64,000 bases of DNA from Spirosoma oryzae (GTDB lineage: Bacteria > Bacteroidota > Bacteroidia > Cytophagales > Spirosomataceae). The translations under genes were made by a program, and so were the position numbers. Shown one piece after another: positions 2,590 to 21,965 of the stretch (position 1 is the stretch's first letter; every line of letters starts with the position of its first letter). Below the pieces are notes generated by a model. That model made no database searches. It was not told the DNA's origin and saw nothing but the letters and a program-made list of their open reading frames with translations. Location of the stretch: the NCBI RefSeq assembly GCF_003002825.1, contig NZ_PVTE01000024.1, positions 1-64,000 of the forward strand, given 5' to 3'.

Positions 2590-3496
2590 AAAATTACGGA
2601 CGAGTTAGGTACCGACCTTCGCCTGCTGATCGAGCCTGATCATCGTCGCCTTTCGGTTAGCCAACAGTGTAGTGTGCTGGAACTGGCTCGATCAACTTAT
2701 CATTACCAGCCCGTGGGCGAATCGGTCCAGAATCTGGCGCTAATGCAGCGGATTGACCATTTGTTTACGGCTTGACCTGAGTTGGGTGTGGAGCGGATGT
2801 GTCAGGAACTGACCAGCCTAGAGCAGCCAATCAATGTTAAGCAAGTGCGGCGACTGATGCGGTTGATGGGCCTGGAGGCTATTGGCCCCAAACCTAACCT
2901 CTCCAAGCCTCAGCCCGGCCACATGATTTATCCTTATTTATTACGAGAGGTTGTCATTGAGCGGCCCAATCCGGTCTGGTCCATCGACATTACAGCACGG
3001 GCCGCCCCGCTACGTGCCAATGGCCAGCGGTTTTTTGTACCTATGTGCTGTCATCAACCGCCCGGCGGCCCGGTGGTTCAGTCGATTCATGTTGAGTTGG
3101 CGACGGAGCAACACGCTGTTAGCGGATGTTTATGTAGATGCTCTGGAAGAGTCGTTAAGTATTTGGGGTAAACCTGAAATCTTCAACACTGATCAGGGCA
3201 GCCAGTTCACGAGTCATGAGTTCCTTAAACCGTTGATGAGTAATGAGATAAATAGCAGCATGGACTCAAAAGATCGAGCGTTAGACAACATTTTCATCGA
3301 GCGATTTTGGCGAACTATCAAGTATGAGCCGAACGGGCGGCGTTTACATCAAGGCTTGGAGGAGTATTTTCGCTTTTACAATCAAGAACGCAAGCACCAA
3401 TCGTTAGGCTATCAGACGCCTGCGGCATGGTATGAAAGGGGAAAAGAAAACGGAAAACTACAATACATGCCCTCTACAATATCAAGCTTAATTTAA
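2590..3496 (+). pseudogene. IS3-family transposase OrfB, disrupted
   Basis: The integrase core is clear: WSIDIT (first Asp), FNTDQGSQFTS (second Asp) and ALDNIFIERFWRTIKYE (Glu). Three defects are visible. A TGA interrupts FTA*PELGVERM at about 2774. About 16 GC-rich bases after WSIDIT (around 2994-3010) shift the frame before YVPMASGFLYLCAVIN. A 15-base GC-rich block then inserts RPAAR in frame between CAVIN and WFSRF (3059-3073). Intact relatives normally read DITYVPM and IN(W)(Y/F)SRF without gaps at these two points. Confidence 0.75.
3057..3073 (+). repeat. GC-rich 17-nt repeat, copy A (inside the transposase)
   Basis: The sequence is ACCGCCCGGCGGCCCGG. It interrupts the conserved transposase segment CAVIN/WFSRF, adding five residues. 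The inner CCGCC-C-GGCGG can form a short hairpin. The same 17 bases recur exactly at 3754-3770 (reverse) and 3956-3972. Confidence 0.75.
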
Positions 3497-4417: not shown

Positions 4418-6325
4418 ATGAGTTACCTCAATGGCTTGCGTTTGCACTTTTCAGGGCGCTTTCAGGCCGCTCCATCTACGGTAAACAACGACGTCACCCA
4501 TTTTAACAACAGCACCTTTCTCCCCAACTACCAGCAGTACGGAAGAGGAGCAACAAATGGCTGGTGGAACCCCGGCGGGGGAGCTGAATGGCGGCTGTTG
4601 GGCTGTACGGTACAGACCGCCTGGCTAGACGCCGACACGCCGACCGACGCTTCGGATGTGGTGCTGGGCTGCATAGTGGGCGACACCGACCGGCGGGCAC
4701 CCGCCAAGATTGTAGACCTGGACCCGTTGCAACAGCTTGTGTCCGAAATCTGGGGGCTGGAAGTGCGACTGTCAACGGCCGACGGGCAGTTGCTACTGCG
4801 TGGGCAGTACGACGCAACGGGCTTTATGGACATCTGGGACCGGGCTCAGGGAGGAGGGGGCGATGTGGGGGCAGGCTCTATGTACCAGTCGGTTCTGACA
4901 GAACTGGAGTGGGGAGATCTCAGCCGGTCCCCTTTTCTAGAGGCTCTACAGCAGGCCAGTCCCGATAAGCTGCTGTCCATCAAATTCAACGTAGATGGAT
5001 ACAACATGGATCGGACATCGCCCGAATTTACCCGGGGGCGCATCGTGGGTACGATTGGGCCGGCCACTAATGAAGAGCCGCGCCATTTTGTCGCTGGCCG
5101 CCAATTTATTCCCCAGGATACGGGTAAGGGTAATTTTTTCGCACCGCAGGCCAGTCTCGGCTTCTGCGTGGCCCGGCTAGACGAGTCCGCCAGACGCCTG
5201 TTTCTGGATCTGGGCAACGCGTTGCCGACTACCGTACCCGGTGGCCCGCTTAGCGATCTGGGGTTACTCCAGCTCCTTCTGGAAGATACCGGCGAACCTA
5301 TCTCGTCTGCCTTGCCTTACCTGACTCCCAACTGGTATGAACAAACGGCGGGTCTGGTAGCCGTACCCGCACAGCGCCCCCTGACAGATGCGGAAATCGA
5401 AGCGATCAACACCCGGCCACTGGCGCTGCAACTCCTGCTGGATGGGGCTACTCAACTGACGCCGGAATCACCCAATGGCCTGTTTGTGCGGGCTGACCGG
5501 TTTGTGTTTCGGGCCGATGCGGGCCAGTCGGTCGCGGTTGACCTGTGGGCTACGCGCTATGGGCAACCGTACGCCAATGCAACCATCCTGCTCCAGCTAG
5601 ATGCCAGCCAGTTGCAACCCGGCTCCGGCTACGTGCAACCGGTTACGCCTGACTCCCAGCCGTCTACGCCGGGCGAACCCACAGACGTACTTTCGTTCCC
5701 CAATCAGGTAACGGCCGATCAGCGGGGGCGGGTTACGGTATGTATTCAGGCGGGAGACCCGCAACGGTATCGGCAGTACATTGATGGTCAGGTGTACGGT
5801 CTGCGCCCTTCCCTGGCCGAAATTGGCTTTCCGCCACTCAACCCCAACCCACCCTTTATTTATCCGCTGGGCACTTGGAATTTTATCAGCTTCCTGATCT
5901 GGGACGCCTTTCCTATCGAAACGCCTGTAACCTGGTATGGTTGTTTGCAACCCATTTTCCAACAGTATGCAAACCTATACCCCGTCATGAGCCGCTTTCT
6001 CAACCTGGCCGATCCACTGGAGGTGTGGGCCAATCAGGCGTTGCTGACCATGGCGTTCGGGCTACCCATCACCGATCCGAATACCATGCCGGTTACCCGT
6101 GACCTGTCGATGGCCAAGCGGCAGGCTATCCTGGCCTGGCTGAACGCCACGGATACGACCGGACAACCCCTGCTACAACTGGGTGAACCATGGCAACGTC
6201 CTCTTCCGCCGGCCGCTGCCAGTGCGCTGGCGGTAGAACAGCCCACGTCTGCCGCCAGCCAGCCCGCCGAAGCCCTGCGTGGGGGCAAGGCTATGGCAGC
6301 CAGCCGACGGCTCGTTTTGCGGTAA
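4418..6325 (+). CDS. VioB N-terminal-half-like protein
   Basis: The product is 635 residues from the ATG at 4418 (MSYLNGLRLHFSGRFQAAPS). An in-frame start at 4334 would run through the repeat region and is less likely. The opening LRLHFSGRFQAAPSTVNND resembles the start of VioB/RebD-type proteins (PRIHFRGxxxxxxxTxNRD). As in VioB, a later part contains a membrane-unlike domain with QQYANLYPVMSRFLNLADP, matching the AYYELVYPFMSDKVFSLAD region, and VTRDLSMAKR, matching STRELSAPKA. VioB makes the iminophenylpyruvate or indole-imine dimer in bisindole biosynthesis. Here the ferritin-like C-terminal half of VioB is a separate gene starting 36 bases downstream. The tail (residues about 600-635) is Ala-rich. 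No signal peptide is seen. Function is inferred from distant similarity and context. Confidence 0.6.
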   Translation: MSYLNGLRLHFSGRFQAAPSTVNNDVTHFNNSTFLPNYQQYGRGATNGWWNPGGGAEWRLLGCTVQTAWLDADTPTDASDVVLGCIVGDTDRRAPAKIVDLDPLQQLVSEIWGLEVRLSTADGQLLLRGQYDATGFMDIWDRAQGGGGDVGAGSMYQSVLTELEWGDLSRSPFLEALQQASPDKLLSIKFNVDGYNMDRTSPEFTRGRIVGTIGPATNEEPRHFVAGRQFIPQDTGKGNFFAPQASLGFCVARLDESARRLFLDLGNALPTTVPGGPLSDLGLLQLLLEDTGEPISSALPYLTPNWYEQTAGLVAVPAQRPLTDAEIEAINTRPLALQLLLDGATQLTPESPNGLFVRADRFVFRADAGQSVAVDLWATRYGQPYANATILLQLDASQLQPGSGYVQPVTPDSQPSTPGEPTDVLSFPNQVTADQRGRVTVCIQAGDPQRYRQYIDGQVYGLRPSLAEIGFPPLNPNPPFIYPLGTWNFISFLIWDAFPIETPVTWYGCLQPIFQQYANLYPVMSRFLNLADPLEVWANQALLTMAFGLPITDPNTMPVTRDLSMAKRQAILAWLNATDTTGQPLLQLGEPWQRPLPPAAASALAVEQPTSAASQPAEALRGGKAMAASRRLVLR

Positions 6326-6361
6326 TTTCTGTTTCATTTTCTCCCTCTCAGCCAACCCATC

Positions 6362-7456
6362 ATGTTACTGCTTAAACAATCACTGGCCACCGACCTGTCT
6401 GATATAGCCAACCTGCGGACGGCTTTGCAGGAAGCTATTGAACTGGAACACTCGACGATTCCGCCCTATCTGTATGCGCTGTACTCCCTGAAGCCGGGAC
6501 AAAACGAAACGATCCGGGCGCTGATCCGCTCAATCGTCTGGGAAGAAATGGCACACATGAGCCTGGCCTGTAATATGCTCAATGCCATTGGCGGCAGTCC
6601 GCAAATTGACAAACCTGATTTTATTCCGGCGTATCCGGGTCCGTTGCCCGGTACGGTCGAATCCGGGTTGATCGTGCCGCTGTCGCCCTTCTCACCGCAA
6701 CTGGTCAATGCGGTATTTATGACCATCGAGCAGCCTGAGCATCCGCTTGATTTTCCCGTTGGCCCCGCCCTGCTGGCTACCGCGCCCGAACGCCCCCTGA
6801 CGATCGGTATGTTTTATCAACGCATAAAAGCAGCGTTTATAGCGGGCGGGGAAGGGTTATTTACGGGCGATCCGGCCCGGCAGGTAAGCAGCTGGCGCAT
6901 CCAGCCCGTGACTGATCTGGCCTCGGCCATCAGCGCAATCGATACGATTGTCGAACAAGGCGAAGGCACGCCGGAATCGCCGATGGACCATGGATTGATG
7001 CAGTCGGAAGAAGTCGCCCATTACTACCGGTTTGCCGAGATTTACCATGGCTACCAGCTGATCCCGAATTCGGGCGTCCCGGCCGATGCGCCCTTCGACG
7101 AGCGGTATCGATACGCCGGGGCCCCCATTGCCTACGAACCAGCCGGCGTATGGCCGGTAGTGAGCAATCCGAAGCTGACGACTTATCCAGATGGGTCAGC
7201 CGCCCAGTTTGCCTGTCAGACCTTTAACTATACCTATACGGGCTTACTGAAGGCGTTACACCAGACCTTCAACGGGCAACCAGCGTACATCAATACGGCC
7301 ATTGGGATGATGGAATCATTGAAAGGCCTGGCCTTGGGTATGATGTCTACGGCTTATACGCCTGACGGGCTAACGAATGCAGGGCCGAGTTTCGAGTACA
7401 TGCCTCAGTTGCCACTGCAATATCCGCCCGCTCCACCCGCTCCCCAGCCCAGTTAA
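6362..7456 (+). CDS. Ferritin-like iminophenylpyruvate dimer synthase-type protein (VioB C-half-like)
   Basis: The product is 364 residues. The N-terminal helix bundle carries LQEAIELEHSTIPPYLYALY (residues about 22-41), then VWEEMAHMSLACNMLNAIGG (about 60-79), and later SEEVAHYYRFAEIYHG (about 219-234). The E...E-x-x-H and E-x-x-H pattern fits the ferritin-like domain found at the C-terminus of VioB and in stand-alone relatives. In VioB the equivalent stretch reads LRKAVDLELSVMLQYLYAAYS and HEEMIHYLVVNNLLMALG. Here the N-half is encoded by the preceding gene, so the pair looks like a split VioB. The C-terminus is Pro-rich (YPPAPPAPQPS). It probably acts on an imine or amino-acid oxidation product; the substrate is unknown. 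Confidence 0.7.
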   Translation: MLLLKQSLATDLSDIANLRTALQEAIELEHSTIPPYLYALYSLKPGQNETIRALIRSIVWEEMAHMSLACNMLNAIGGSPQIDKPDFIPAYPGPLPGTVESGLIVPLSPFSPQLVNAVFMTIEQPEHPLDFPVGPALLATAPERPLTIGMFYQRIKAAFIAGGEGLFTGDPARQVSSWRIQPVTDLASAISAIDTIVEQGEGTPESPMDHGLMQSEEVAHYYRFAEIYHGYQLIPNSGVPADAPFDERYRYAGAPIAYEPAGVWPVVSNPKLTTYPDGSAAQFACQTFNYTYTGLLKALHQTFNGQPAYINTAIGMMESLKGLALGMMSTAYTPDGLTNAGPSFEYMPQLPLQYPPAPPAPQPS

Positions 7457-7546
7457 CCCGAGCTTTTTGCTCAACCCGGACGCCCCCATCGTTTCTACCC
7501 CGCACTAGCCTTCTCCCGCGTATCCCTCTTTTCCTGAACCAATTCC

Positions 7547-10500
7547 ATGAAAAGCCTTATCGACAGCACCAATAAGCTGAATACCACCTGCTCCTGCGAC
7601 GATCCTATCGAGTGTCTGCGGCATATGTTCTGCGACCTGGTCCAGAAAAACCGGGTAGAGCATCAGGGTCAGTGCCCCGCCCGACGGCCCGTTTTTCTGC
7701 GTACGCACGGCATTGTCGAGGGGACGTTTACTATTCTGGAGGCCATCCCGGCTGTACTGAAAGCGGGCCTGTTCGCCACGCCGGGCACCCACCCGGTTTA
7801 CATCCGGTATTCGTCGGATCTGAACGATGGGCGACCCGACTGGCTCAGCACGATCGGCATCGGTATCAAAGTGTTTGACGTATCGGGCGACAAGTTCGTC
7901 TCGGATAATGGAGCCAACACAGCTGATTTTCTGCTGCAAAACGTGCCGTTTTTTTTCGTGGATACGGCCCGTGACATGTGTAACTTCACCAAAGCCGCCC
8001 TCGAGGGCTGGGATGACGACTGGATTCAGCAGCATGCGCCGGGTACCACGGCCCTGCTGAACAACATGGAAAAACAAACCCATTCGGTGTTTGAAACGCC
8101 TTTGTGGAGCGTAGTGCCCTTTCAGCTGGGTGAAAGCCACTACGGCAAATACATACTGCGGCCCGGCGTATCTACGTTTGCCGCTGAAGTCGATAGCAAC
8201 GATCCCGATTTTTTGGGTAAGGATCTGGCCGGGCGTATGGCCGCCGGCCGCGCTACCCTGGACTTTTACGTTCAACTGCGGCCTGATGCCGCCGACGTTG
8301 GCGAAGCATATGTCGACACCCATTTCCCGCTTGACCGGGCCACGGTTACGTGGGACGAACGGGTAGCGGTCCCTATCAAAGTCGCCACGATTGAACTTCC
8401 TCAGCAGGACATCACGGCAGCGGACCGAACGATTTATGGCGACTGGCTTTCGTTCAATATCGGCCGGGTACCCCTGGCCAACAAACCAGTGGGCAGTATT
8501 GCTGAAGCACGGATCAGTGTGTACCAGACCAGCGCCAATTACCGCCGGGCAAAAAACGACCAGCCGGTCACGGAGCCGACTGCACCGGGGGAACCGGTCA
8601 TCAGAAACCCCGTATGCCCTTTTCCACACCAGAAACCGACGGGTGAGCAACCTAAAGCACTCACCGACGAGCAGATCAGGCGCATCACTCATGTTCGGAT
8701 TCATCCGGGTATTGGCGTGGCCAGGGTAGGCAACAGCGCCAGCGACTATTACATTGGCCCTGAGGTATTCAGACCGGCCCCCACGGCGTTCGGCAGCACC
8801 CGCGATGCGGGCGGGGCCATCAAACGGCAGGCGGCCCGCTTCCGCATCTATGGCTACGATAAAGACGGTGATGTCGTGGCCGAAGTGCAACAGGCCGATA
8901 ACACGACGATTCAGTGGACGGTCCATCTGGCCAATAAGAAAGCGGCCTGGTACCAGTTCAACGCGGCAATGGATATACCGGCTACGGTAAGCCTACAGGT
9001 GCCCCTCCGCAATGCGGGCGTGACGGGTGGCGACCGGCGTGCGCTGGCCATCGACACCGGCAGAAAAACAATTATGGGCCTGAACATGCACGACGACAGC
9101 TACGTATTGTCGGGGACGTTCCAGGGAACGGACGTCACCCTCGGTGAACTACGCACCGACGCCGTGGGTCGACTGGTGGTACTGCCCGGTTTCGGCGTAT
9201 CGGCCAGCCCCGCTGGGCGGCCCATTTATCAGCCCAGCAACCCTGACAGTTTCAATAACGCCGATGGCTGGTACGACGATATTGCCGATGGCCCGGTGCA
9301 GGCCAAAGTTACCATTGGTGCTCTCGATTTCGTGGCCGACCCGGCATGGGTGGTTTCGGCCCCACCTAACTTTGCCCCGGACCTGATCGGGTGGCGCACG
9401 ATGGACGACCTGCTACAAAGCGTTTACATGCAATGTGGCCTGCTAAGCGTGCCCCAGCGGATCTCCTTCACAGAGCATGTCCGGCCCATCCTCGAACGGC
9501 TCAGCGAGATGCAATGGGTCAACAAAGGCTATCTGGCCATGTTCGGAGCAGGCGCGCCCCTCAACTTCACCGACCCGGCGCTGCTCCGCAAGCTGGCAAC
9601 CGTACCGGCCGATACGAACCTGTACCCGGACCCGTACCTTGAGCTGCGCCGAACCATTTACAACAGCTTCCGGCCAACAAACACCCAGACCGTAGAAGCC
9701 GCTGCCTGGCCCTGGAACTACAGCGACGCCTACGGGTATACCAACCCCGACCCGCTGGCGGCTCCTTCGCCACTCACCTACATGCAGTTGCCGCCTTTCT
9801 ATAACTATGTGCTGACCAACTGGGTGAATGGCCTGTTCATCAACGATTACGATCCGGCGGAACAGCCACCACAGACGATAGCCGACGTTGACCTGCAAAA
9901 ACAGCCCGATACGCTTGACCGGGCGGCCATGCGCTTCTGTCTGGCGGATGCCTTCCACCCGGGCGCTGAACTGACCTGGCCCATGCGTAACCCGTCTATG
10001 TACCGGGCCCCCTACCGAATCAGGTTGTGCGAAGAAGGGCTCAGTGAACCGACCTACGGAGCCATGCTGACCAACAGCGACGTGTTGGCCATCAACGGCC
10101 CCCTGTATGGCCAGCGGCCCGGCACGCTGACCCGCTGGATGGCCCTTCCCTGGCAGGGTGACACGGCCTATTGCCGATCGGGCTACGAATTCGAATACGA
10201 CCCCTACGTACCGACGTTTTGGCCGGCCCGGGTACCCAACCAAGTGCTGACGGAGGTCGATTACCACACGCTCTGCGACCTCACCCAGCCGCTTGATATC
10301 CGGCTGGCAGCTTTCCAGAACCGGCCGGGCTGGCTAAGGCAGTTACCATCTGCAAGCCCGGCACCGGAGCAGATGCTGTACATGGTAGCCCACTTCGGCG
10401 AAATGGGTATTCTGGAAGCCAAACCCCGCCCCGATGACCTGGACTGGTTACCGGCCGTTATCTACGTGGAGAACCTGACTAACGTCAAGAAGGCGGAACT

Positions 10501-10633
10501 GGCAAAAGACTATCAGCGCTTCCAAAAAGCGTTTGGGCAGCTTGGGTTGTATGACCGCAAACTGGCCGAAGCGGGCTGGATCAGCGAAGAACAGCGGAAC
10601 GAGTTCGACACGATCAAGCGCCGAGGCTTATGA
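7547..10633 (+). CDS. Catalase-like domain fused to a LodA/GoxA-type quinoprotein amino-acid oxidase
   Basis: The product is 1028 residues with two parts. Residues about 45-345 resemble heme catalase-like proteins of the y4iL/SrpA type: FLRTHGIVEGTF (His54 in the distal-His position), HPVYIRYSSDL, GIGIKVFDVSGDKF and QNVPFFFV. From about residue 379 the protein is a LodA/GoxA oxidase: THVRIHPGIGVARVGNS, then STRDAGGAIKRQAARFRIYG, and FHPGAELTWPMR (Trp811). LodA-family enzymes oxidise amino acids to an aldehyde or keto acid with release of NH3 and H2O2, using a cysteine tryptophylquinone made within the protein. I cannot assign the partner Cys by eye; candidates include QCGLLS and RFCLADAF. The catalase-like part may remove the H2O2 formed. 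The gene overlaps the LodB-like gene by four bases (ATGA), as expected for the maturation partner. No signal peptide is seen. Confidence 0.75.
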   Translation: MKSLIDSTNKLNTTCSCDDPIECLRHMFCDLVQKNRVEHQGQCPARRPVFLRTHGIVEGTFTILEAIPAVLKAGLFATPGTHPVYIRYSSDLNDGRPDWLSTIGIGIKVFDVSGDKFVSDNGANTADFLLQNVPFFFVDTARDMCNFTKAALEGWDDDWIQQHAPGTTALLNNMEKQTHSVFETPLWSVVPFQLGESHYGKYILRPGVSTFAAEVDSNDPDFLGKDLAGRMAAGRATLDFYVQLRPDAADVGEAYVDTHFPLDRATVTWDERVAVPIKVATIELPQQDITAADRTIYGDWLSFNIGRVPLANKPVGSIAEARISVYQTSANYRRAKNDQPVTEPTAPGEPVIRNPVCPFPHQKPTGEQPKALTDEQIRRITHVRIHPGIGVARVGNSASDYYIGPEVFRPAPTAFGSTRDAGGAIKRQAARFRIYGYDKDGDVVAEVQQADNTTIQWTVHLANKKAAWYQFNAAMDIPATVSLQVPLRNAGVTGGDRRALAIDTGRKTIMGLNMHDDSYVLSGTFQGTDVTLGELRTDAVGRLVVLPGFGVSASPAGRPIYQPSNPDSFNNADGWYDDIADGPVQAKVTIGALDFVADPAWVVSAPPNFAPDLIGWRTMDDLLQSVYMQCGLLSVPQRISFTEHVRPILERLSEMQWVNKGYLAMFGAGAPLNFTDPALLRKLATVPADTNLYPDPYLELRRTIYNSFRPTNTQTVEAAAWPWNYSDAYGYTNPDPLAAPSPLTYMQLPPFYNYVLTNWVNGLFINDYDPAEQPPQTIADVDLQKQPDTLDRAAMRFCLADAFHPGAELTWPMRNPSMYRAPYRIRLCEEGLSEPTYGAMLTNSDVLAINGPLYGQRPGTLTRWMALPWQGDTAYCRSGYEFEYDPYVPTFWPARVPNQVLTEVDYHTLCDLTQPLDIRLAAFQNRPGWLRQLPSASPAPEQMLYMVAHFGEMGILEAKPRPDDLDWLPAVIYVENLTNVKKAELAKDYQRFQKAFGQLGLYDRKLAEAGWISEEQRNEFDTIKRRGL

Positions 10634-11772
10634 GCGGCCCGGCGGCCTACCACGATGTCGTGGTTGCCGGGGCAGGCCCGGCGGGCTGCGCAGCGGCTAT
10701 CGTGCTAAAGCAGGCGGGGCACAACGTTTGCCTGGTCGATCAGGCGAGCAGGCTGGTGCGTAAGGTCGGCGAATCGGTACCCGGGGCGATCATTCGCCTG
10801 CTGAATCGTCTGGGTATTCTGGGTATAGATACGCTTCTGTCGCCCGAGGATCACAAACGGTGCGTGGCCAATGCGTCCGCCTGGGGCAGCGATCAGTGGG
10901 TCTATCAGGATGCACTGCGTAATCCGGAGGGCGGGGGCTGGCATATCAATCGTGCCCGTTTCGATGCAGCTCTGCGCCAACGGGCCATCCTGGCCGGCAT
11001 TCCGCTGTATGCAGCCCGGGTTGGGCCGTTGGAGCGATCACCGACCCGGGATCTGTCCCAGCCGGGCTATCTACTTCACCTGAAAGGCCAGTCAGGGGAG
11101 CTGATTCCACCCATTCAGACCCCCTGGCTGATCGATGCCACCGGGCGTAAAGCCCAGATCGGCCGGCAGCACCGGCTCCCAAGATACCGCCTGACGAACC
11201 AGATGGCCGCCGTATATTGGATTGATAGTGGCGAACCCGACCGTGACCATATGACCCGCCTGAAATCGACCGTTGAGGGGTGGTGGTACACCGCCCTATT
11301 ACCCGATACCAGCCGCATTATCAGCTTTCAGGGTTTACCCGCCACTAGTGGCAAACTCATTCGGAGCCCAGCGGCTTTTGTGACCCAGTTCAACGCGACT
11401 GCGATTCTACCCAATCCAATAAGCCTTCATTCAGTTATTGCTTGTACAGCAAGCGACGCGGGCCTGATTCGCATGCCGACGGTAGCGATCCCAGGTTTAG
11501 TCTGCGTGGGCGATGCTGCCTTGTCACTTGACCCCTTGTCAGCGCAAGGTATTTTCTTTGCGCTCTACAGTGGCATCAAAGGGGCTGAAGCCATCTCAAT
11601 AGGTTTGACTGATCCACTTCTAACAACCAGTGCGTTACAAGCCTACCAGCATTGTGTTGATCAGGTCTTTACCGCTAATCAACAACTCAGAAATCATTTC
11701 TACTTAAACGAACATAGGTTTACGGCTGCCAGCTACTGGCGGCAGCAGGTGTTATCGGTAATTTTAGCGTAA
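10630..11772 (+). CDS. LodB-like FAD-dependent oxidoreductase
   Basis: The product is 380 residues. It has an N-terminal dinucleotide-binding motif VVVAGAGPAGCAAAIVL (residues about 10-26), a GESVPG motif as in tryptophan-halogenase and geranylgeranyl-reductase-type flavoproteins, DATGRKAQIGR in the middle, and CVGDAALSLDPLSAQGI, the second FAD contact. LodB proteins are needed to form the tryptophylquinone cofactor of the adjacent LodA, and the ATGA overlap with the oxidase gene supports that role. The last ~60 residues have lower GC than the rest. Start codon: ATG at 10630. A halogenase role is unlikely given the neighbour, but cannot be excluded by sequence alone. Confidence 0.75.
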   Translation: MSGPAAYHDVVVAGAGPAGCAAAIVLKQAGHNVCLVDQASRLVRKVGESVPGAIIRLLNRLGILGIDTLLSPEDHKRCVANASAWGSDQWVYQDALRNPEGGGWHINRARFDAALRQRAILAGIPLYAARVGPLERSPTRDLSQPGYLLHLKGQSGELIPPIQTPWLIDATGRKAQIGRQHRLPRYRLTNQMAAVYWIDSGEPDRDHMTRLKSTVEGWWYTALLPDTSRIISFQGLPATSGKLIRSPAAFVTQFNATAILPNPISLHSVIACTASDAGLIRMPTVAIPGLVCVGDAALSLDPLSAQGIFFALYSGIKGAEAISIGLTDPLLTTSALQAYQHCVDQVFTANQQLRNHFYLNEHRFTAASYWRQQVLSVILA

Positions 11773-11810: not shown

Positions 11811-12374
11811 TATGACACCTACCTATTTTCATTACCAGACCAGTCTGCTGCTGACGGTATTGCTCGGTTGTAGGCGATTCTAAACCCCCACCGCTGCCGA
11901 AAACCCCTGTGCGCTGCCTAGGGGGCGTTGTCTACCGGCAGTTCATCGGCCGACGGGTCCTACCGATCGATGTGCTGTTTCGGGCCGCCCACCCCTGGGT
12001 CAACGAGCAGCCCAGCGACTACATGCTGGAAGCCGAGAAACCGCTTTTCAGACAGACCCGGCTCTTTCCCGGCCTGATACCCGAGCCGCGTTGCCCCCGA
12101 TGGGGTGGCTCACTCATTGATACCCTACGCCCAGTTTTATAGTTCCGTCGATGCCGAGCCCGACACGCCCAATGTGTTTTTTTCATCCTATCAGGTCATA
12201 CGGGTTGGCCGGACGACGATCAATTCGGTCGATCTGATCCGGGAATTACGCGATACGGTACTCGCGCAGGCTGTCGATCGGGAAAGCCGCCAGCTGATTC
12301 AGTCACTAGGTGATCTGCTGCGGCTGCGCAATCAGCCTATTGATGATGGCGGCTATGGGGCCGAGATCGATTGA
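11811..12374 (+). pseudogene. Lipoprotein gene broken by two frameshifts
   Basis: The ATG at 11811 gives a lipoprotein signal (SLLLTVLLGC) that stops almost at once. Dropping the A at 11872 restores LGCGDSKPPPLPKTPVRC, a normal lipoprotein start, and the frame then runs through IGRRVLPIDVLFRAAHPW to SLIDT. A second shift at about 12110-12125 continues as YAQFYSSVDAEPDTPNVFF to GGYGAEID at 12374. Two independent small genes are possible, but the restored lipobox argues for a single gene of about 185 residues. The family is not recognised. It precedes the exonuclease-like gene by 53 bases, so the two may have been co-transcribed. Confidence 0.5.
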
Positions 12375-12427
12375 GCGTATGCCGTATATTTGTTAAGGCT
12401 GTAGCCGACTTAATAACCCAGCGTCGG

Positions 12428-13591
12428 ATGGATACACTCTTTTTCGATATTGTAACCAGTGTGCCCCGCACCACCCTGAGCCGCATGCAGGGCCAGCGCC
12501 ACTACCCCGCCCGGCTCCTGCAGGTGGCCCTGATCAATCAGGCCGGTGAACTGCTTTACAAAAGCTACGTCCAGCCCGCTGAACTCGACTGGGAGGAAAC
12601 CTCGGATGGTACCTACCTGAGCGTGTCTGATTTCAAGCGCAAACGCTATCCTACCCAGCAGCAGGTCATCGAGCAGCTACGGCCGCTGCTACAGACGTGG
12701 GAAGTGGTCGTATATGGTCTAAGCGAAAAATGGGAATTCGTTCACCCTTTTATCCACCCGATCCGCCAGAAGTGGTGCTCCCGGAAGCTACCGGCTAACC
12801 TGGGTCGGTGGGGGGATTCCCGGCCGCCGACCCAGCCAACCTTCAGTCAGGAACTGGGGGAGATCCTGTTCACGCCCCACGACAGTGCCGATACGGGTAA
12901 GCGCGATGCCGAATCGGTGGCGATGGGTAGCCGGGCCCTGTGGCGGTATCGGACCGACCCGACCTACCGGGCCGAAGTGGAAGCCCGGCGGGAGTACTAC
13001 CGGATCAATCCCATCGTTGAAAAAATCATTTACCAGGAACGATTACCCCAATACGAGCAACGTAGCCGGGTGTACCAGCAGTTGGAAGCCCGTATTTTCG
13101 ACGCGGCCCATATCATCCTGCCGGATCGCGAGCGGGAACGGGAGGGCAAAGCCAGCGCCAGTACCTTTTGCTGTGCCCTGACGGGGTATTCGCTGTATGA
13201 GTGGGAAACATACGGCACGTGGCTGGCTGCCCCGGTTGTTACATCGCCTTACCCGACGCATCTGGTGGCCGACTACAAGATCAAGCGGATGGGGGCCATG
13301 CAGCCGACAGCCCGGCTGGATAACCGCCGGCCGGATAACCGGCAGTATCACGGGGGTGGCTCACGCTACACGTTTCTGTTCGATCTGTCGAACTACCAGC
13401 TGGGTGTAGACTACGTGCCCATTGTCGACTATCCACCGGGGGGGATGTATTCGATTTCAGCATTGAAGAAGCAGTTCCGGCTCAAGGAGGCCCAGGTGAA
13501 CGGTCTGTTGCCGGCCGCTCATACCCACGGTTTGTGGGGCGAGTATTTTCTGTATCGATGGCCGGTCGAGGAAAGCACTCACCGGGATTGA
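12428..13591 (+). CDS. Hypothetical protein with a 3'-5' exonuclease-like N-terminus
   Basis: The product is 387 residues from the ATG at 12428. A TTG at 12371 would extend it, but the protein-like sequence begins MDTLFFDIVTSVP. The first ~100 residues resemble a DnaQ-type exonuclease fold (LFFDIVTSVP, then PARLLQVALINQAGELLYKSYVQP). However, the usual D-x-E is D-x-V here (FDIVT), so nuclease activity is doubtful. The rest contains RYRTDPTYRAEVEARREYY, an acidic/arginine-rich helix DREREREGKAS near residue 235, and a C-terminal SALKKQFRLKEAQVNGLL segment. No signal peptide or membrane segment is visible. It follows a broken lipoprotein gene. The function is unknown. Confidence 0.5.
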   Translation: MDTLFFDIVTSVPRTTLSRMQGQRHYPARLLQVALINQAGELLYKSYVQPAELDWEETSDGTYLSVSDFKRKRYPTQQQVIEQLRPLLQTWEVVVYGLSEKWEFVHPFIHPIRQKWCSRKLPANLGRWGDSRPPTQPTFSQELGEILFTPHDSADTGKRDAESVAMGSRALWRYRTDPTYRAEVEARREYYRINPIVEKIIYQERLPQYEQRSRVYQQLEARIFDAAHIILPDREREREGKASASTFCCALTGYSLYEWETYGTWLAAPVVTSPYPTHLVADYKIKRMGAMQPTARLDNRRPDNRQYHGGGSRYTFLFDLSNYQLGVDYVPIVDYPPGGMYSISALKKQFRLKEAQVNGLLPAAHTHGLWGEYFLYRWPVEESTHRD

Positions 13592-13825: not shown

Positions 13826-14752
13826 GAAGCTGTTTAGGACTTAGCCGTTATGGCTTTTTATCGTTCAATCTTACGCAGAAACAGCACGACAAAGGCCAAC
13901 CAGTGGAATGATACCCAGATCTCCACGCAGCTTTCGTAACGCACCAGTAAGGTCTTGAAGCTGTCCAGCCAACTAGTAGCCTGCTCAATCACACTGCGCC
14001 GTTTGTACCACTCCTCATCAAAGTAAGGTAACCTCGAAGCTGAGCTAAGACCACAATGGCGATTCAGTGCAATGTTGGTTTCAAGCTGCCGGTGTTGGCA
14101 AGCCAGCCGCAGCTGTTGACTGTTAAAACCGCTATCGGCGTTGAGAAACAGGTCACTTAGGCTTAGTTCCGCTTCCTCCAGCAACACACAGAGCTGCTCA
14201 AAGAGGGCTTCAATCCCCAATAGGTCATGGTGATTGCCGGCCTGAGGGCAGCACAGGCTAGCATCCCCCCCTGGTTGTCAGCCATAAACAGGGTGTTGGT
14301 GGTAGGAGCCGCTTTGCGGCCCTGATAACCAACGGCCTCTCCACCGTTTTTGGCCGGTGTATGCGAACCGTCTAACTGAATGCTAGAGCAGTTCAAAAAT
14401 TGTTTGTTGAGTCGGCGTACATTGAGCCAGACGCGTCGCCAGGACCCATCTTTGCGCCACTCGTTGAAATGAAAGGACACACCTTGCCAAGTCAATGGTT
14501 GGTCATCAAAAAACTGTTTAACCGGTAGCTGCCGCCATTGGCAACCGGTTTTGCGCTTGTAAAGGCTGGCAGCCAGCCGGTCAGTCATAGCTACTTTTAG
14601 TGGTTTTCCCCGCTTGCCCAGGGTCAAATGTGGCAGAATCTAACGCTGGATGGTAGTTTTGTCTAAGACTTCCAAGAAGTAGGCTGATTTGAGTGTCGCA
14701 GCCCAAATGCCGCCCTTCAGCGGAAGTCTTTTTCATTAGCCTAAACAGCTTC
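13826..14752 (-). mobile_element. IS5-family element of about 927 bp, inactive
   Basis: The terminal inverted repeats are GAAGCTGTTTAGG at 13826-13838 and its exact reverse complement at 14740-14752. Between them lies one transposase gene on the minus strand, split and with an early stop. The size fits the IS427-like branch of the IS5 family. No clear target duplication could be read at the flanks. It lies just after the kduD stop, at the end of the uronate operon. Confidence 0.75.
13858..14649 (-). pseudogene. IS5-family transposase, frameshifted
   Basis: The N-terminal frame reads ILPHLTLGKRGK, then KTGCQWRQLPVKQFF, LTWQGVSFHFNEWRKDGSW, SIQLDGSHTPAKNGGE (first Asp) and NTLFMADNQGG. The frame shifts near 14235, and the C-terminal part continues AGNHHDLLGIEALFEQL, LFLNADSGF (second Asp), RRSVIEQATSWLDSF (Glu) and RYES. 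A TAG at about 14660 sits where the true N-terminus would begin. Some IS5 elements use programmed frameshifting, but I see no obvious slippery run, and the early stop argues for decay. Confidence 0.7.
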
Positions 14753-15697: not shown

Positions 15698-16996
15698 CTA
15701 CCGAATCGAATCCAGTTGAACCGGCTTCATAGTAGGCGTGAGTACGTGCATGACGAGCCAGGCCAGCAGATAGGCAGACCCGCACATCAGAAAGATGATC
15801 CCGTAGCCGCTCTGCACGTCGCCCGCCTGCTTGTAGCTTTGCAGGATGCGCCCAACAATTTCGGGGAAAATGATCCCCCCTACCGAACCGGCCATGCTCC
15901 CAATACCGACCACGGTGCTAACCGCCCGTTTGGGAAACATATCCGACGCTGTCGTAAAAATGTTGGCACTCCAGGCCTGGTGGGCCGCCCCGGCCAGACC
16001 GATCAGGGCCACCGCCCCCCAGATGCCTGGCCCGTAGCGAACGGCGATGACGGGTACCACCAGCAGGGCAAAAATGAACATGGCCGTCTTGCGGGCTTTC
16101 CAGACGCTCCAGCCCCGCCGGATCAGCGCCGACGACAGATAGCCCCCGCCAATACTCCCGATGCTGACCAGCGTGTAGAGTACGGCCAGATATAAGTTGG
16201 GCTTCTTGGTATCAAGGTGAAACGTAGTGGCGAAATAGTCCTGTAACCAGAATAGGAAAAACCACCAGATGGGGTCGGTTAGCATCTTACCAACTACGAA
16301 GGCCCAGGTCTGCCGTTTACCCAACAGCTGTCCCCAGCCAACCGATGGCTCCTGAGCGGCAGTGGTTTCCGGCTCGTTGTCGCTGAGAATGTACTCGTAT
16401 TCGGCCTTCGACAAACGAGGTTGCTGCGCAGGCGATTGATAGCTAAAATGCCAGAAAATTAACCAGATGAACCCAACGGCACCAGTCGCAATAAAAGCCA
16501 TCTGCCAACCATAAACACCCAGCAACCAGGGAACAACGATCGGCGCAATCACCGCCCCGATGTTCGCCCCGGAATTGAAAATACCGGTTGCCAGTGCCCG
16601 CTCTTTCTTGGGAAACCACTCGGCCACCGTTTTTATTGCCGCCGGAAAATTGCCCGCTTCGCCTAGTCCTAAGCCCACGCGAGCCACGATAAAACCAACC
16701 GTACTGGTTGCCATAGCATGGGCCATAGCCGCCAGACTCCAGAAGATAATGGCGAGTGAGTAGCCCCGCTTGGTGCCGATGTAATCGATGAAACGACCGA
16801 ACAATAGCAGACCGAGGGCGTAAGCCGCTGAGAAAAACTGGACAATCCGGCTGTAGTCGATCTCCGACCAGTTGAATTCTTTTTCCAGCGTAGGCTTCAG
16901 CAGACCCACTACCTGCCGGTCGAGGTAGTTGATGGTGGTGGCGAAAAACAGCAGGGCCACAACGGTCCAGCGAAAATTCCCTACAGATTTACGCAT
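15698..16996 (-). CDS. ExuT-like hexuronate transporter (MFS, ACS family)
   Basis: The 432-residue membrane protein has about 12 hydrophobic segments. The start contains NFRWTVVALLFFATTINYLDRQ, the signature of anion:cation symporters such as ExuT, followed by GEAGNFPAAIKTVAEWFPKKERALATGIFNSG. It probably imports galacturonate, glucuronate or an unsaturated derivative with protons across the inner membrane. Its ATG overlaps the end of eda by 16 bases, so the two are translationally linked. ExuT and KDG transporters are hard to separate by eye; the operon context fits either. Confidence 0.8.
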   Translation of the reverse strand: MRKSVGNFRWTVVALLFFATTINYLDRQVVGLLKPTLEKEFNWSEIDYSRIVQFFSAAYALGLLLFGRFIDYIGTKRGYSLAIIFWSLAAMAHAMATSTVGFIVARVGLGLGEAGNFPAAIKTVAEWFPKKERALATGIFNSGANIGAVIAPIVVPWLLGVYGWQMAFIATGAVGFIWLIFWHFSYQSPAQQPRLSKAEYEYILSDNEPETTAAQEPSVGWGQLLGKRQTWAFVVGKMLTDPIWWFFLFWLQDYFATTFHLDTKKPNLYLAVLYTLVSIGSIGGGYLSSALIRRGWSVWKARKTAMFIFALLVVPVIAVRYGPGIWGAVALIGLAGAAHQAWSANIFTTASDMFPKRAVSTVVGIGSMAGSVGGIIFPEIVGRILQSYKQAGDVQSGYGIIFLMCGSAYLLAWLVMHVLTPTMKPVQLDSIR

Positions 16997-17658
16997 GCGG
17001 TTGTAGGCAGGTAAGGGGTTAGTTGAGTCAACAGATCGGTAATACGCAGGCGCAGCTGGTCAGGCGGTAGCGAATCGCCGGCGAACAATTGCGACCCCAG
17101 CCCGAGGGCCGTAGCTCCCGCTGCCAACCAGGGCTTTATACTCTCGACGGTTGGTTCGACACCACCTGTCACCATTAGGTTTAAGCCGGGTATTGGCCCG
17201 TGAATGGCCTTGATAAAATCCGGACCAATGACATTTCCCGGAAACACCTTTAGCAACTGCGCCCCCAGCCTTGTAGCCTGATACAGCTCGTTCAGGGTGG
17301 TTCCCGCTGGTATCCAGGGGATATTTCGTGCGTGACAACGACCGCCCACGGCCGGGGTTATTACGGGTTGTACCACAAAATCGGCCCCGGCATCCATAAA
17401 GGCATCTGCATCGTCGGGGGTCAGAATGGTCCCGATCCCGAGCGCCAGCTCCGGGCACTGTTGCCGGACGAATGGTACGACCTGCGTGAAGGTAGCCAGC
17501 GCATCAGCCCCCCGGTTGGTAAATTCAAACACCCGCAGCCCGCCCTCGTAACAGGCTTGTATGGTTTGCCGGGTGTGATCAGGGTCGGCATGGTAAAACA
17601 CCGGCACCAGGGGGACGGCCCTTAAACTGGTTAGTAAATGAGAAATTGAAAAAGACAT
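16981..17658 (-). CDS. eda: 2-keto-3-deoxy-6-phosphogluconate aldolase
   Basis: This 225-residue class I aldolase cleaves KDPG to pyruvate and glyceraldehyde-3-phosphate, ending the uronate pathway. Glu45 in RVFEFTNRG and the Schiff-base Lys137 in QLLKVFPGN are visible, with GIGTILTPDDA and MVTGGVEPT as further family motifs. It starts five bases after the kdgK stop and overlaps the transporter downstream. The length is typical for Bacteroidota enzymes, slightly longer than the E. coli protein. Confidence 0.88.
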   Translation of the reverse strand: MSFSISHLLTSLRAVPLVPVFYHADPDHTRQTIQACYEGGLRVFEFTNRGADALATFTQVVPFVRQQCPELALGIGTILTPDDADAFMDAGADFVVQPVITPAVGGRCHARNIPWIPAGTTLNELYQATRLGAQLLKVFPGNVIGPDFIKAIHGPIPGLNLMVTGGVEPTVESIKPWLAAGATALGLGSQLFAGDSLPPDQLRLRITDLLTQLTPYLPTTACVNL

Positions 17659-17663
17659 AGCGT

Positions 17664-18692
17664 CTAGGAATAAGAAAGCGAACCAGTTGCTCGGGCCTGA
17701 ATTTGTTTTACCGTCTGCCGGGTGGCATCACCGGATTCCTGCAACTTGCCGAAAGCGGCCTGTGTAGCAAAGCCGACAATCTGCTGGGGAGAAAGCTGAT
17801 GACGAAACCCGTAAATTAGCCCGGCCATGTAACAATCGCCACTGCCCACCCGGTCCACCACGGTACTGGTATAAAGTTCGTTCGATACGTATTGCTGCCC
17901 TTCGCTATAGAGCGTTGTATAATAGCGCAGACCAGTCGGTGGATCATCGAACCGGAACGTATTGGCAATCGCTTTGCAGCGCGGAAACCGCTCCTGTATG
18001 GTCTGTGCCGTTGTTAGCGCATGAGCCAGGTAGCCGGCCTGCGTGCTACCCTCTCGGATGGAATCGGCCAGCGGAATGCCTAGTAGCGAATTGGCAGCCC
18101 AGATGTTTCCCATCACGATGTCGCAATACTCAACCAGACCGGGCATAACTGTCTGGGGAGAAACGCCGTATTGCCAGAGATTAGCCCGGTAATTCAGATC
18201 GATCGAGATAGTGATCCCTTTTGCCGAAGCCGTCTGTACCAGTTCCAGGCAAACAGCGGCTGCGTTGGCGGTCAATGCCGGACTGATAGCGCTTATGTGC
18301 AGCCAGTCGGCATCACCCAGTAGCGTGTCCCAGTCGGTTTGATTGGGCATTCGGCGGGCAAACCCCGATTCCGCCCGGTCGTAGATAACTCCGGTACTTT
18401 TGAGATCGGCTCCCTGGGGTAAGTAGTACGTGCCGATTCGGTCAGCTGATCGCAGCATTCCGGTCGTATCGACGCCTTGCTGCTCGACAAACGCCACTAG
18501 TTCATCACCCAATACGGTAGTCGGAACAACTGAACTGTAGCCGACTGGTGTATGCCAATGGGCCAGGGCGCGGGCTACGTTCAACTCAGCGCCACCGACA
18601 TGAACAGGCATCTGACAGGTCTGCAACCAGTCGCCATTCAACGCGGGCGAAAACCGGAGCAGCAGCTCGCCAAAACAGATAACGTGAGACAT
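17664..18692 (-). CDS. kdgK: 2-keto-3-deoxygluconate kinase (PfkB family)
   Basis: The product is 342 residues when started at MSHVICFGELLLRFSP (18692). The longer ORF reaches 18854 but overlaps the preceding DUF4861 gene and adds non-protein-like residues, so it is rejected. It has VHVGGAELNVARALAHW near residue 30 and the PfkB C-terminal motif VDRVGSGDCYMAGLIYG with the catalytic Asp. It phosphorylates KDG to KDPG. It sits between the DUF4861 gene (13 bases) and eda (5 bases), as expected for a step in one pathway. Confidence 0.87.
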   Translation of the reverse strand: MSHVICFGELLLRFSPALNGDWLQTCQMPVHVGGAELNVARALAHWHTPVGYSSVVPTTVLGDELVAFVEQQGVDTTGMLRSADRIGTYYLPQGADLKSTGVIYDRAESGFARRMPNQTDWDTLLGDADWLHISAISPALTANAAAVCLELVQTASAKGITISIDLNYRANLWQYGVSPQTVMPGLVEYCDIVMGNIWAANSLLGIPLADSIREGSTQAGYLAHALTTAQTIQERFPRCKAIANTFRFDDPPTGLRYYTTLYSEGQQYVSNELYTSTVVDRVGSGDCYMAGLIYGFRHQLSPQQIVGFATQAAFGKLQESGDATRQTVKQIQARATGSLSYS

Positions 18693-18705
18693 CGTTCGAG
18701 AGGGC

Positions 18706-19830
18706 TTATTTTCCGACGGCGATACGAGGGGGATGGTTACGCTGCTGCGCAAACTGGCGCAGGTAAGCAAACCAGTCCTGACTTGAGGTGATGCGGCCCG
18801 CTTTGTCCCAAGCACCACCCGTGTAGTAGAGCAGGTCACCGGCTGGGGGGGCATCGAGCCGTGCTAGCAGATGATCGTACTTCGTCAGCAGCCGAACGGG
18901 CGTAACCGGAAATACGCAGCCGATACCCAGTGTACCATCGTTGCCGTGTTTCGGCTCCCAGTAACCCAGCACACCCGCTTTTTCGTCCAGCAGGACCGGA
19001 CTGGGCTCTTTGCGCTGGCTGATGCCAACCACCATCGGCAGGGCCTTTCCTGAGTTTTGTTCGATGTGGACCTGTACTTTGTTAAGCTGCGAGCCGGCAT
19101 CCAGCGATACCGTCCGTACTTCCCGAACCGTAATTCCATTGAATGTGTAGGGGTCGAACCGCACGCGGAACGTGGTGCGCAGGGGGCCGTTGTCCAGCAC
19201 TTCCCAGCTCGTGTAGTTATGGATGAAGTGGAGCGAATCGTTCAGAAAAACAGCGATGTCGCCCGCCCCGAGGGTCAGCCCCACGTGGTAGTAATCCAGC
19301 CCCTCACCGTGGTCGTTGTGGTAATCGTTTTCCTTGTACCACTTATTCAGAATCAGTTGATTCGTCCGTTTAGCCCAGATGTCGGTGCCGTAGGCATTGT
19401 CCGACCGTCCGTTCAGGGCCGCACCGTAGATTCGAAACGCTACCCGGTCGTTCTCCCAGGCAAAATCGTCGAAGCGTTCGGGGACGTAGCGACCATAGGT
19501 TTTAGAAACAGCCGGTGCTGGTTTACCTCCTCGTAGGGTCAGCCCAATCGACTGTTTGGGGCCAATGGATACCTGAACCAGCAGGTGCTGCACGTCTTTC
19601 GTCCCCCGACGTTCCAGTTGATACGCCACCGGCTGCTGACTTCCCATTAGCAGTACCTGCAAATTCGTCGTGTCGACGTTGGGATAGGCCTTTTTTACCG
19701 TGGCCCAGGGAATCTCGATGACCTGCTCATTAAGCGGTACGTCAGCCGGGTTGTTGATCCGAATCGGCGACTGCGCTCCGACGTAATGACTAAGCAGAAA
19801 AAGCGAAACAAACGTAGTAAACAGGTTCAT
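18706..19830 (-). CDS. DUF4861-family secreted protein
   Basis: The product is 374 residues from the ATG at 19830 (MNLFTTFVSLFLLSHYVGAQ, a signal peptide). The upstream in-frame start at 19881 lies inside the ROK gene and is unlikely. The body has PVAYQLERRG, the aromatic segment RFDDFAWENDRVAFRIYG, and KWYKENDYHNDHGEGLDYYHVG, all typical of DUF4861 proteins found in pectin and uronate gene clusters of Bacteroidota. The biochemical role is not established to my knowledge. Its position between ROK and kdgK suggests a periplasmic step that prepares or binds uronate oligomers. Confidence 0.7.
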   Translation of the reverse strand: MNLFTTFVSLFLLSHYVGAQSPIRINNPADVPLNEQVIEIPWATVKKAYPNVDTTNLQVLLMGSQQPVAYQLERRGTKDVQHLLVQVSIGPKQSIGLTLRGGKPAPAVSKTYGRYVPERFDDFAWENDRVAFRIYGAALNGRSDNAYGTDIWAKRTNQLILNKWYKENDYHNDHGEGLDYYHVGLTLGAGDIAVFLNDSLHFIHNYTSWEVLDNGPLRTTFRVRFDPYTFNGITVREVRTVSLDAGSQLNKVQVHIEQNSGKALPMVVGISQRKEPSPVLLDEKAGVLGYWEPKHGNDGTLGIGCVFPVTPVRLLTKYDHLLARLDAPPAGDLLYYTGGAWDKAGRITSSQDWFAYLRQFAQQRNHPPRIAVGK

Positions 19831-19849
19831 GATTTTATCGTTGAGTCGA

Positions 19850-20824
19850 TTACAATAAGGCGGCTCCAAACACACCGGCACTGTCGCCCAGTTTGGGTTT
19901 TAGAAAGAGCGTTTCCAGCCGATTGTCGTTGAATACGTATTTTCGGGCCCGCTCGACGCCCTCCGTGTACAGCAAATCGACGTTGCCCACGCCCCCGCCC
20001 AGGATGATGGCATCCGGGTCGAGCATATTGACGATGGTCGAGACCGCGCGGCCAAAATACGTCAGCAGCCGCTCGACGGTGGCGTTGGCTACGGGGTCGA
20101 TTCGTTGGTGGTAGCGTTCCAGAATTTCCTTCAGGTTGCGGTTTTCCCCACTCTGTTCGAGGTAATACCGTTGCAGGGCCGGCCCGGAAATAACCTGTTC
20201 GTTACAGCCGCGCTTACCACAGTAGCAGGCGTAGCCGTTCTCTTCCAGGCTATTATGGCCCCACTCGCCACCGATGCCCTGACGGCCCGCCTGGACGATG
20301 GCCTGTCCATCCAGTCCCCGGAAGACGATGCCCCCTCCGACGCCCGTTCCCAGGATTACCCCGAAAACGGTCCGGTAGTCGGGAACGACATCCTGCACAA
20401 TACCCATCGTGGCTTCCGAAAGCGCAAAGCAGTTGGCGTCGTTCGTCAGGGCAACGGGTACACCAAGCGCCTTCGACAAATCATCCCGAAACGGTTGCCC
20501 GTTGATGCAGGTCATGTTCGAGTTCTTCATGGTGTTGGTCGCCGGATCGATGGTGCCGGGCGTACAAAAACCAATGCGCTCGGGTTGTAGCCCCGTTTCG
20601 GTTTTCAACAAATTGATGAGCCGGACAATCTGACTGACGATGTGATCGTAGCCGTAATGCGATTCGGTGTCGATTCGCCGGCGAGTCAGTACGGCATTGG
20701 GCGAGGGAGCGGACAGAATAACCCCCTCGATTTTGGTGCCGCCTAAATCGACACCCCAGTAGGTTCGCCCGGATGATGGGTACAGGCGTTCAGATAAATC
20801 GTTCAAGTTATTGTGTATCAGCAA
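19850..20824 (-). CDS. ROK-family sugar kinase
   Basis: The product is 324 residues. It shows YWGVDLGGTKIEGVIL (ATP phosphate loop, residues about 22-37), a middle GTGVGGGIVF, the ExGH-type segment GIGGEWGHNS, and the zinc-binding CYCGKRGC followed by NEQVISGPAL. There is no N-terminal helix-turn-helix, so it is an enzyme rather than a ROK repressor. The substrate is unknown. KdgK already covers KDG phosphorylation in this operon, so this kinase may act on a neutral sugar released by the GH43 enzyme, possibly galactose, glucose or fructose. It begins 59 bases after the kduI stop. Confidence 0.8.
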   Translation of the reverse strand: MLIHNNLNDLSERLYPSSGRTYWGVDLGGTKIEGVILSAPSPNAVLTRRRIDTESHYGYDHIVSQIVRLINLLKTETGLQPERIGFCTPGTIDPATNTMKNSNMTCINGQPFRDDLSKALGVPVALTNDANCFALSEATMGIVQDVVPDYRTVFGVILGTGVGGGIVFRGLDGQAIVQAGRQGIGGEWGHNSLEENGYACYCGKRGCNEQVISGPALQRYYLEQSGENRNLKEILERYHQRIDPVANATVERLLTYFGRAVSTIVNMLDPDAIILGGGVGNVDLLYTEGVERARKYVFNDNRLETLFLKPKLGDSAGVFGAALL

Positions 20825-20883
20825 GGCAATCGACCGGATAAAAACCAGGCGGACCAGGCCGCACAGGTCGGGCGTGGTTCGGC

Positions 20884-21768
20884 TTACCGTAGTTCGATAA
20901 TCGGGCAGAAATCCATATCGCCATAGTCGAGGTTTTCCCCGGCCATCCCCCAGATGAAGGTGTAGTTGGACGTACCGGCTCCGGAGTGAATCGACCAGTT
21001 GGGGGAAATGACCGCCTGCTCGTTCTGCATCCAGACCGGACGTGTTTCTTGTGGCTGGCCCATAAAATGACAGACACTTTGTCCCTTTGGCAGCTCGAAG
21101 TAGAAGTACACTTCCATACGCCGGTCGTGGGTATGAGCGGGCATGGTATTCCAGACGCTGCCCGGCTTTAGTTCGGTCATCCCCATTTGTAACTGGCAGG
21201 TTGGCAATACGCTGTTGACCAGCAACTTGTTGATCGTACGGTGGTTGGCCGTTTCGGGGCTACCCAGTTCGACTACGTCGGCGTCAGCTTTCGCTACTTT
21301 ACGGGTTGGATAGGCATAACCCGCTGGGGTCGAGTTCAGGTAAAATTTTGCGGGATTGGCCGCGTCGAGCGAAGCAAACAGAACCTGCTGCGTACCCTGA
21401 CCAACATAGAGGGCTTCTTTGAAATCGAGATCGTACGCCACACCATCGGCAATCACCTGACCGGGCCCACCCACGTTGATCATACCCAGTTCCCGACGTT
21501 CCAGGAAAAAGGACGCTTTCAGTTGAGCCGGTGCTTCCAGCGTTACGGGTTCCGTTCCGGGCATCACGCCACCGGTCAGGTAACGGTCGAAGAAGGTAAG
21601 TACCCAGGTGAACTGATCGGCGACGAACAGATTCTCGATGAGAAAATGCTGCCGGATCTGTTCGGTATTCATCGTCTTTACTTCGGTTGGTGACGATGCG
21701 TATCGGCTTTCGAACGAAATGGGCGATTCTCCCTTACCGACAATAATGGTATCCTGTTCTGGTTGCAT
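20884..21768 (-). CDS. kduI: 5-keto-4-deoxyuronate isomerase
   Basis: The product is 294 residues. It converts the open-chain form of unsaturated galacturonate (DKI) to DKII, the substrate of KduD. The cupin metal site is visible: NTMPAHTHDRRMEVYFYFE (H-x-H and Glu) and, about 50 residues later, NWSIHSGAGTSNYTFIWGMAGEN. The first 15 or so residues before FESRYASSPTEVK extend beyond the E. coli enzyme. An alternative start further in is possible. About 197 bases separate it from the GH43 gene upstream, so it may have its own promoter. Confidence 0.88.
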   Translation of the reverse strand: MQPEQDTIIVGKGESPISFESRYASSPTEVKTMNTEQIRQHFLIENLFVADQFTWVLTFFDRYLTGGVMPGTEPVTLEAPAQLKASFFLERRELGMINVGGPGQVIADGVAYDLDFKEALYVGQGTQQVLFASLDAANPAKFYLNSTPAGYAYPTRKVAKADADVVELGSPETANHRTINKLLVNSVLPTCQLQMGMTELKPGSVWNTMPAHTHDRRMEVYFYFELPKGQSVCHFMGQPQETRPVWMQNEQAVISPNWSIHSGAGTSNYTFIWGMAGENLDYGDMDFCPIIELR

Positions 21769-21965
21769 AGATAAGTTGATGTGCGATCTGCCCTGGCTGG
21801 CTCAAGAATCGTGAGGGTTCTGTGTAACGACGACTGCCTTCATACATTAAATAGTCTTGTCGAAGGTAGTAATACCCCTTTTTGTGAAGTTTATTACCCC
21901 GGGTGTTGTCTAGCAACGTATCGAATCGGCGAAAGTAACAGCAACGCAGCTCACCAGACTGCCCA

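Follow-up and report, generated by a model that had tools for sequence, protein, structure and literature searches.

A cluster of four co-directional genes on the forward strand of Spirosoma oryzae contig NZ_PVTE01000024.1 (positions 4418-11772 of the 64,000-nucleotide stretch analysed here, hereafter the window) was found to join a predicted cysteine tryptophylquinone (CTQ) oxidase unit to a two-gene VioB-like enzyme, a combination that appears to be new, whereas each of its parts was already known singly. From its sequence, our reading of the cluster is that of a putative undescribed oxidative amino-acid or amine pathway, and we consider it an even proposition that the four genes are one acquired pathway unit, in which LodA takes the place of a flavin amine oxidase and the VioB-like pair processes the product. 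No report of a LodA-type oxidase combined with VioB-like or ferritin-like genes in this manner was evident among the papers listed by literature searches. If the reading is true, the cluster would be, to our knowledge, the first example of a dimerising pathway supplied by a CTQ enzyme. The cluster joins two uncharacterised groups, LodA group III and the VioB-like pair, and yields a testable guess, namely that the oxidase supplies the pair.

Gene 1 (4418-6325, forward strand; 635 aa) begins at the ATG at 4418, a start common to its family, and precedes gene 2 (6362-7456, forward strand; 364 aa). The initial annotation had likened these genes to the N and C halves of VioB, and profile comparisons bore this out: the gene 1 family profile matched residues 1-412 and 514-586 of genuine VioB (2.2e-21) and that of gene 2 residues 607-939 (1.7e-20), such that the two genes are collinear with the two halves. 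Judged by sequence, the VioB identity of both is remote, in that the model for VioB, the iminophenyl-pyruvate dimer synthase (TIGR04492; cut-off 1250 bits), did not match gene 1 and gave gene 2 15.9 bits, far under the cut-off. Gene 2 matched the ferritin-like family PF12902 (3.2e-66; 223.8 bits against a Pfam cut-off of 22.3 bits), whilst no Pfam or NCBIfam family was detected in the gene 1 family members scanned. Homologues of gene 1 numbered 1857 proteins at E<=1e-3 among 7995 candidates scored, with 120 listed. In an 87-row alignment of gene 2 homologues (87 of the 93 matches, those under 1e-60), six candidate metal ligands were conserved (E29, E62, H65, E123, E201 and H220), all of which aligned with identical residues in genuine VioB. 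The order of both halves and the candidate ligands are therefore shared with VioB, which is however a single gene. Among the closest known systems, RebD and StaD presumably stand beside VioB.

Gene 3 was confirmed as the catalase-LodA fusion that had been claimed for it. Its C-terminal part (residues 379-1028; 8681-10633, forward strand) scored over the Pfam cut-offs for both LodA_N (255.3 bits; cut-off 26.3) and LodA_C (122.8 bits; cut-off 25), and contained Asp872 and the Cys-Trp pair expected of the cofactor, Cys876 aligning with Cys516 of LodA and Trp892 with a Trp of GoxA; Trp581 of LodA lay outside the aligned stretch, and the structure model of gene 3 was poor around Trp892. The Cys876/Trp892 pair was kept in 40 of 40 fused relatives (every third of 120 listed proteins; 51 of the 120 were used in the structure alignment). 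The N-terminal domain (residues 1-378; 7547-8680, forward strand) adopts a catalase-superfamily fold with candidate heme-site residues T53, H54, N132, R322 and Y326. A search against the catalase family itself failed, as PF00199 matched neither the whole of gene 3 at E<=1 nor the N-terminal part at E<=10, although the fold and the heme-site residues do fit. A comparable arrangement is found in the coral allene oxide synthase-lipoxygenase (3dy5, 1u5u), where a catalase-fold heme domain is likewise fused before a peroxide-generating oxidase and a threonine likewise precedes the distal histidine, but the partner oxidase is unrelated and catalases score within 2 Z units of the coral structures. 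The coral heme-site residues are termed identical to those of catalase in the accessible part of PMC5617202.

Catalase-LodA fusions had already been published in 2015 (Campillo-Brocal 2015, PMC4417212), and in the accessible part of that survey the catalase-fused members of LodA/GoxA group III share with gene 3 the fusion, the Cys-Trp pair and the LodB partner; a protein from an Azospirillum lipoferum 4B plasmid, which aligned with residues 24-976 of gene 3 (39.4%), is probably one of those in its Table 3. The difference lies directly upstream, since a VioB-like pair in that position is not described in the same part of PMC4417212. The characterised enzymes offer limited guidance as to substrate. 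Gene 3 fell under the equivalog cut-offs of both the glycine oxidase GoxA (NF038173; 376.4 bits, cut-off 750) and the lysine oxidase LodA (NF038172; 179.4 bits, cut-off 600), and none of the members of group III, the catalase fusions among them, had been characterised according to the accessible part of the 2015 survey (PMC4417212). Both points would accommodate a gene 3 that acts, in the manner of LodA on lysine, upon an amine or side-chain amine to give an aldehyde or cyclic imine, with a pair that does not dimerise aromatic imines. We hold this to be unlikely, since a ThDP enzyme and members of a flavin amine oxidase family are neighbours in related loci (see below) and fit imine or 2-oxo acid chemistry.

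Gene 4 (10630-11772, forward strand; 380 aa), which overlaps gene 3 by 4 nt, had been put forward as the LodB maturase, and proved to be LodB-like: it gave 175.8 bits with the LodB model NF038171, under the equivalog cut-off of 400 bits, followed by QhpG (169.2) and GoxB (162.7). Its family would make it a FAD-dependent maturase, and its PDB matches were a halogenase (8zop, 1.2e-16) and then a peptidyl tryptophan dihydroxylase (7ctq, 3.2e-14).

A scan of the genome collection located relatives of gene 1 in 191 stretches, of which the best 80 were surveyed, with genes taken as the longest open frames picked by a script in place of a proper annotation, and with L009, which duplicates L084, excluded when neighbours were clustered. 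These 80 nearest loci in named genomes were spread over many phyla. Gene 2 was present in 77 of the 80, in 11 of the 77 fused to gene 1, and in the three loci that lacked it the contig ended within 100 nt after gene 1; separate N and C genes are thus the usual form of a functionally undescribed VioB-like family. LodA and/or LodB adjoined the pair, in rearranged order, in five of the same 80 loci, comprising three with both genes (L014, Hymenobacter; L042, Verrucomicrobiaceae; L064, Symploca, with damaged genes) and two with LodB alone (L015 and L058), a recurrence that extends across Bacteroidota, Verrucomicrobiota, Chlorobiota and cyanobacteria. If genomes of 5.5 Mb are assumed, chance alone would place 0.005-0.01 LodA genes in the 1.45 Mb that these loci cover, and the presence of LodA/LodB beside the VioB-like pair is far above this.

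The arrangements themselves were varied, and the LodA genes beside the pair did not form one clade. Locus L042 had the co-directional order F33-DAO-flavin amine oxidase-LodA-LodB-gene 1-gene 2, whilst in L014 a flavin amine oxidase, gene 1, gene 2 and two further ORFs preceded LodA and LodB, again co-directionally. In L058, LodB sits where the contig stops, and the search of that genome for LodA was negative; the count does not include L016, whose LodA-like frame is weak (E 2e-2). In L015, from a Chlorobiota MAG, LodB was observed at 8373-9491 beside the VioB-like pair. The genome of L015 carries LodA on another contig (L180), with no LodB in its 18.7-kb stretch, and has a second LodA-like place. 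The gene order, to whose conservation in relatives the initial annotation had attached weight, therefore recurred in rearranged form in the five loci, but none of the other named genomes showed the window's exact four-gene order. A homologue of gene 1 (P0002, 69%) and one of gene 3 (P0126, 76%) are each listed on a 38,272-base ENA contig, in all probability one and the same.

An alternative to be weighed against these findings is that genes 3 and 4 form an oxidase unit of their own, serving amino acid use or the production of H2O2 against competitors, with the VioB-like pair as a chance neighbour brought in by transfer. Neither LodA nor LodB was nearby in 75 of the 80 nearest gene 1 loci (best 80 of 191), and catalase-LodA with LodB but lacking the pair was encountered on a Rhizobium and an Azospirillum plasmid (L152 and L153; by annotation, L152 also by profile) and in L162 (by profile). 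Similarly, a sample of 395 Bacteroidota genomes contained 12 LodA and 17 PF12902 loci that adjoined in the window and in no other genome, one other genome (G994) having both on different contigs. The cluster is moreover flanked by broken transposases on both sides, each in two overlapping frames, which suggests rearrangement; upstream is one with an integrase core (2782-3496, forward strand; rve and rve_3 on 2951-3496), and downstream one of the IS4/IS5 type (13858-14627, reverse strand; PF13340 on 14163-14627). Set against this are the recurrence of LodA/LodB by the pair in four phyla, the replacement pattern with flavin amine oxidase in the genus described below, and the fusion of a peroxide-consuming fold to the oxidase, which argues against H2O2 as the purpose, and we accordingly regard a stand-alone unit as rather unlikely. 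An antibacterial H2O2 role, raised by the initial annotation, was favoured by no analysis here and contradicted by none. Because the recurrence is above chance, yet LodA and PF12902 adjoin solely in the window in the Bacteroidota sample and catalase-LodA has no partner but LodB on the two plasmids, we take the association of LodA with the pair to be real but sporadic.

How unusual the combination is depends upon which parts are considered. That such parts are not ordinarily found together, as had been stated, holds for LodA-LodB with a split VioB, but not for the catalase-LodA fusion, which beyond its publication accounted for eight of the 12 LodA reading frames in the Bacteroidota sample (judged by length), nor for separate VioB N and C genes. 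Neither does it hold for PF12902 and LodA, reported near one another in fungi (PMC4417212, accessible part): PF12902 lacking the N half was found directly before LodA-LodB in three proteobacterial loci (L154, L168 and L169), namely an Azospirillum brasilense plasmid, G429 and G424; of the eight LodA loci (E <= 1e-40) in 398 genomes from the phylum to which P. violacea belongs, two had this placement.

The notion that a tryptophylquinone oxidase could substitute for VioA was addressed through the oxidases that accompany the pair elsewhere. One oxidase family was found near the pair in L042, L014, L011 and L016; its L014 member is a flavin amine oxidase (PF01593, 9.1e-30), its L042 member had no Pfam match at 1e-3 and was assigned by clustering with that of L014, and the family profile matched VioA at 1.5e-9, a weak match given the size of the superfamily. 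A ThDP enzyme lay beside the pair in L011 and L016, and in G056 (L132) a ThDP enzyme and a flavin amine oxidase preceded LodA-LodB. A gene pair made up of a ThDP enzyme and a member of this oxidase family recurred, being observed in L189 (G009), L190 and L011 (G027), L132 (G056) and L016.

Within the genus, gene 1 was present in three of 36 genomes, these being that of the window (G000), G009 and G027, the pair having been checked in the latter two. At 1e-15, flavin amine oxidase was detected exclusively in G009 and G027, and LodA exclusively in G000 and G002, with neither oxidase in any other of the 36; in contrast to VioB systems, the window genome thus gave no match to a flavin amine oxidase at this threshold (the query being the L014 member). 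At the looser cut of 1e-3, matches of about 50 N-terminal residues appeared in the window genome (3.5e-4, residues 7-61) and in G002 (3.2e-4). Each gene 1 genome of the genus accordingly has one oxidase type, flavin oxidase in G009 and G027 and LodA in G000; the G009 flavin amine oxidase lies at a great distance from the pair, adjoining a ThDP gene. The assembly of G002 (84% complete) carries, at 1200-4573 of L012, a catalase-LodA in two frames and LodB, immediately preceded by a gene 1 relic of 22 residues. The chance of three of three gene 1 genomes falling among four oxidase genomes is 5.6e-4, a figure computed post hoc with the window included by choice, or 1.7e-5 with the G002 relic counted, also computed after the pattern was seen; minus the window, the comparison is one of two genomes, one with the flavin oxidase adjacent. 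Both oxidases co-occur in two other bearers of gene 1, Hymenobacter ASUV-10 and Dyadobacter MSC1_007, and hence LodA and flavin oxidase are not mutually exclusive. Gene 1 is also borne by G039 and G088, and in G088 matches to gene 3 were confined to the catalase part. As a post hoc result from few genomes, the genus comparison supports replacement of a VioA-like oxidase by LodA. The proposal gains further from L042 and L014, each of which has LodA together with the pair and a member of the flavin amine oxidase family, while the two genomes with both oxidases count against it.

It may alternatively be proposed that the VioB-like pair handles peroxide or iron, as a module which protects the cell from the oxidase and performs no coupling chemistry. 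Such a role would be in keeping with the placement of PF12902 directly before LodA-LodB in the three proteobacterial loci, and with the heme b and catalase activity reported for VioB (PMC9705886, accessible part). We nevertheless judge it unlikely, as a catalase-fold domain is already provided by gene 3 and the pair occurs mostly in the absence of LodA, with other neighbours: among the best 80 of 191 gene 1 loci, at least three ebo families were beside the pair in 26, a VOC family was near it in 15 and an ABM/VOC family in 20, company that suggests metabolism. In Pseudomonas cichorii, a fused ABM and VOC protein (L024, 9183-9926) was observed directly upstream of the pair, with related frames in other loci, and in Paraflavisolibacter (L066, 8575-9972) a weakly DyP-peroxidase-like gene was just upstream (2.3e-5, with a single domain of the two exceeding its cut-off).

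The loci in which ebo genes accompanied the pair were from Bacteroidota, Proteobacteria, cyanobacteria and one Streptomyces. Four ebo families were named by their Pfam matches, and eboA and eboE by the absence of a Pfam match, following the accessible part of PMC5133447. In comparison with the scytonemin-associated ebo operon, which adjoins the pair in these other loci, the ebo genes are unlinked to the cluster in the window, eboD-E-F being on another contig of the genome. By analogy with scytonemin (PMC6282210, accessible part), the ebo link points to an exported and perhaps aromatic product. The word ferritin was absent from the main text of both PMC5133447 and PMC6282210, and the survey links the pair to an operon whose function beyond cyanobacteria is poorly understood.

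Under the preferred reading of one acquired pathway unit, gene 4 would mature the cysteine tryptophylquinone of gene 3, which by its family would then oxidise an amino acid or amine to an imine and H2O2, and the fused heme domain might remove or use the H2O2 on the spot. Genes 1 and 2 would form a VioB-like iron enzyme of two subunits that carries out the next step on the oxidised product, where homology is evident and the chemistry conjectural; coupling of two oxidised products would be the simplest carry-over from VioB. LodA would thereby fill the place that flavin amine oxidase holds in related genomes, and ebo genes may take part in export or modification of the product. A more specific version, in which a dimeric amino-acid pathway (bisindole-like or other) has a first step run by a protein-derived quinone in place of a flavin, a catalase-fold peroxidase or peroxygenase spends the H2O2 on an intermediate and the VioB-like pair couples, all as one channelled unit, appears to us unlikely.

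Beyond the cluster, the window contains a 406-aa open frame at 12371-13591 with no Pfam or NCBIfam match. Further downstream, genes of sugar and uronate type, including those for a PfkB kinase, a KduI-like protein, a GH43 and MFS transporters, occupy 15698-24971 on the reverse strand.
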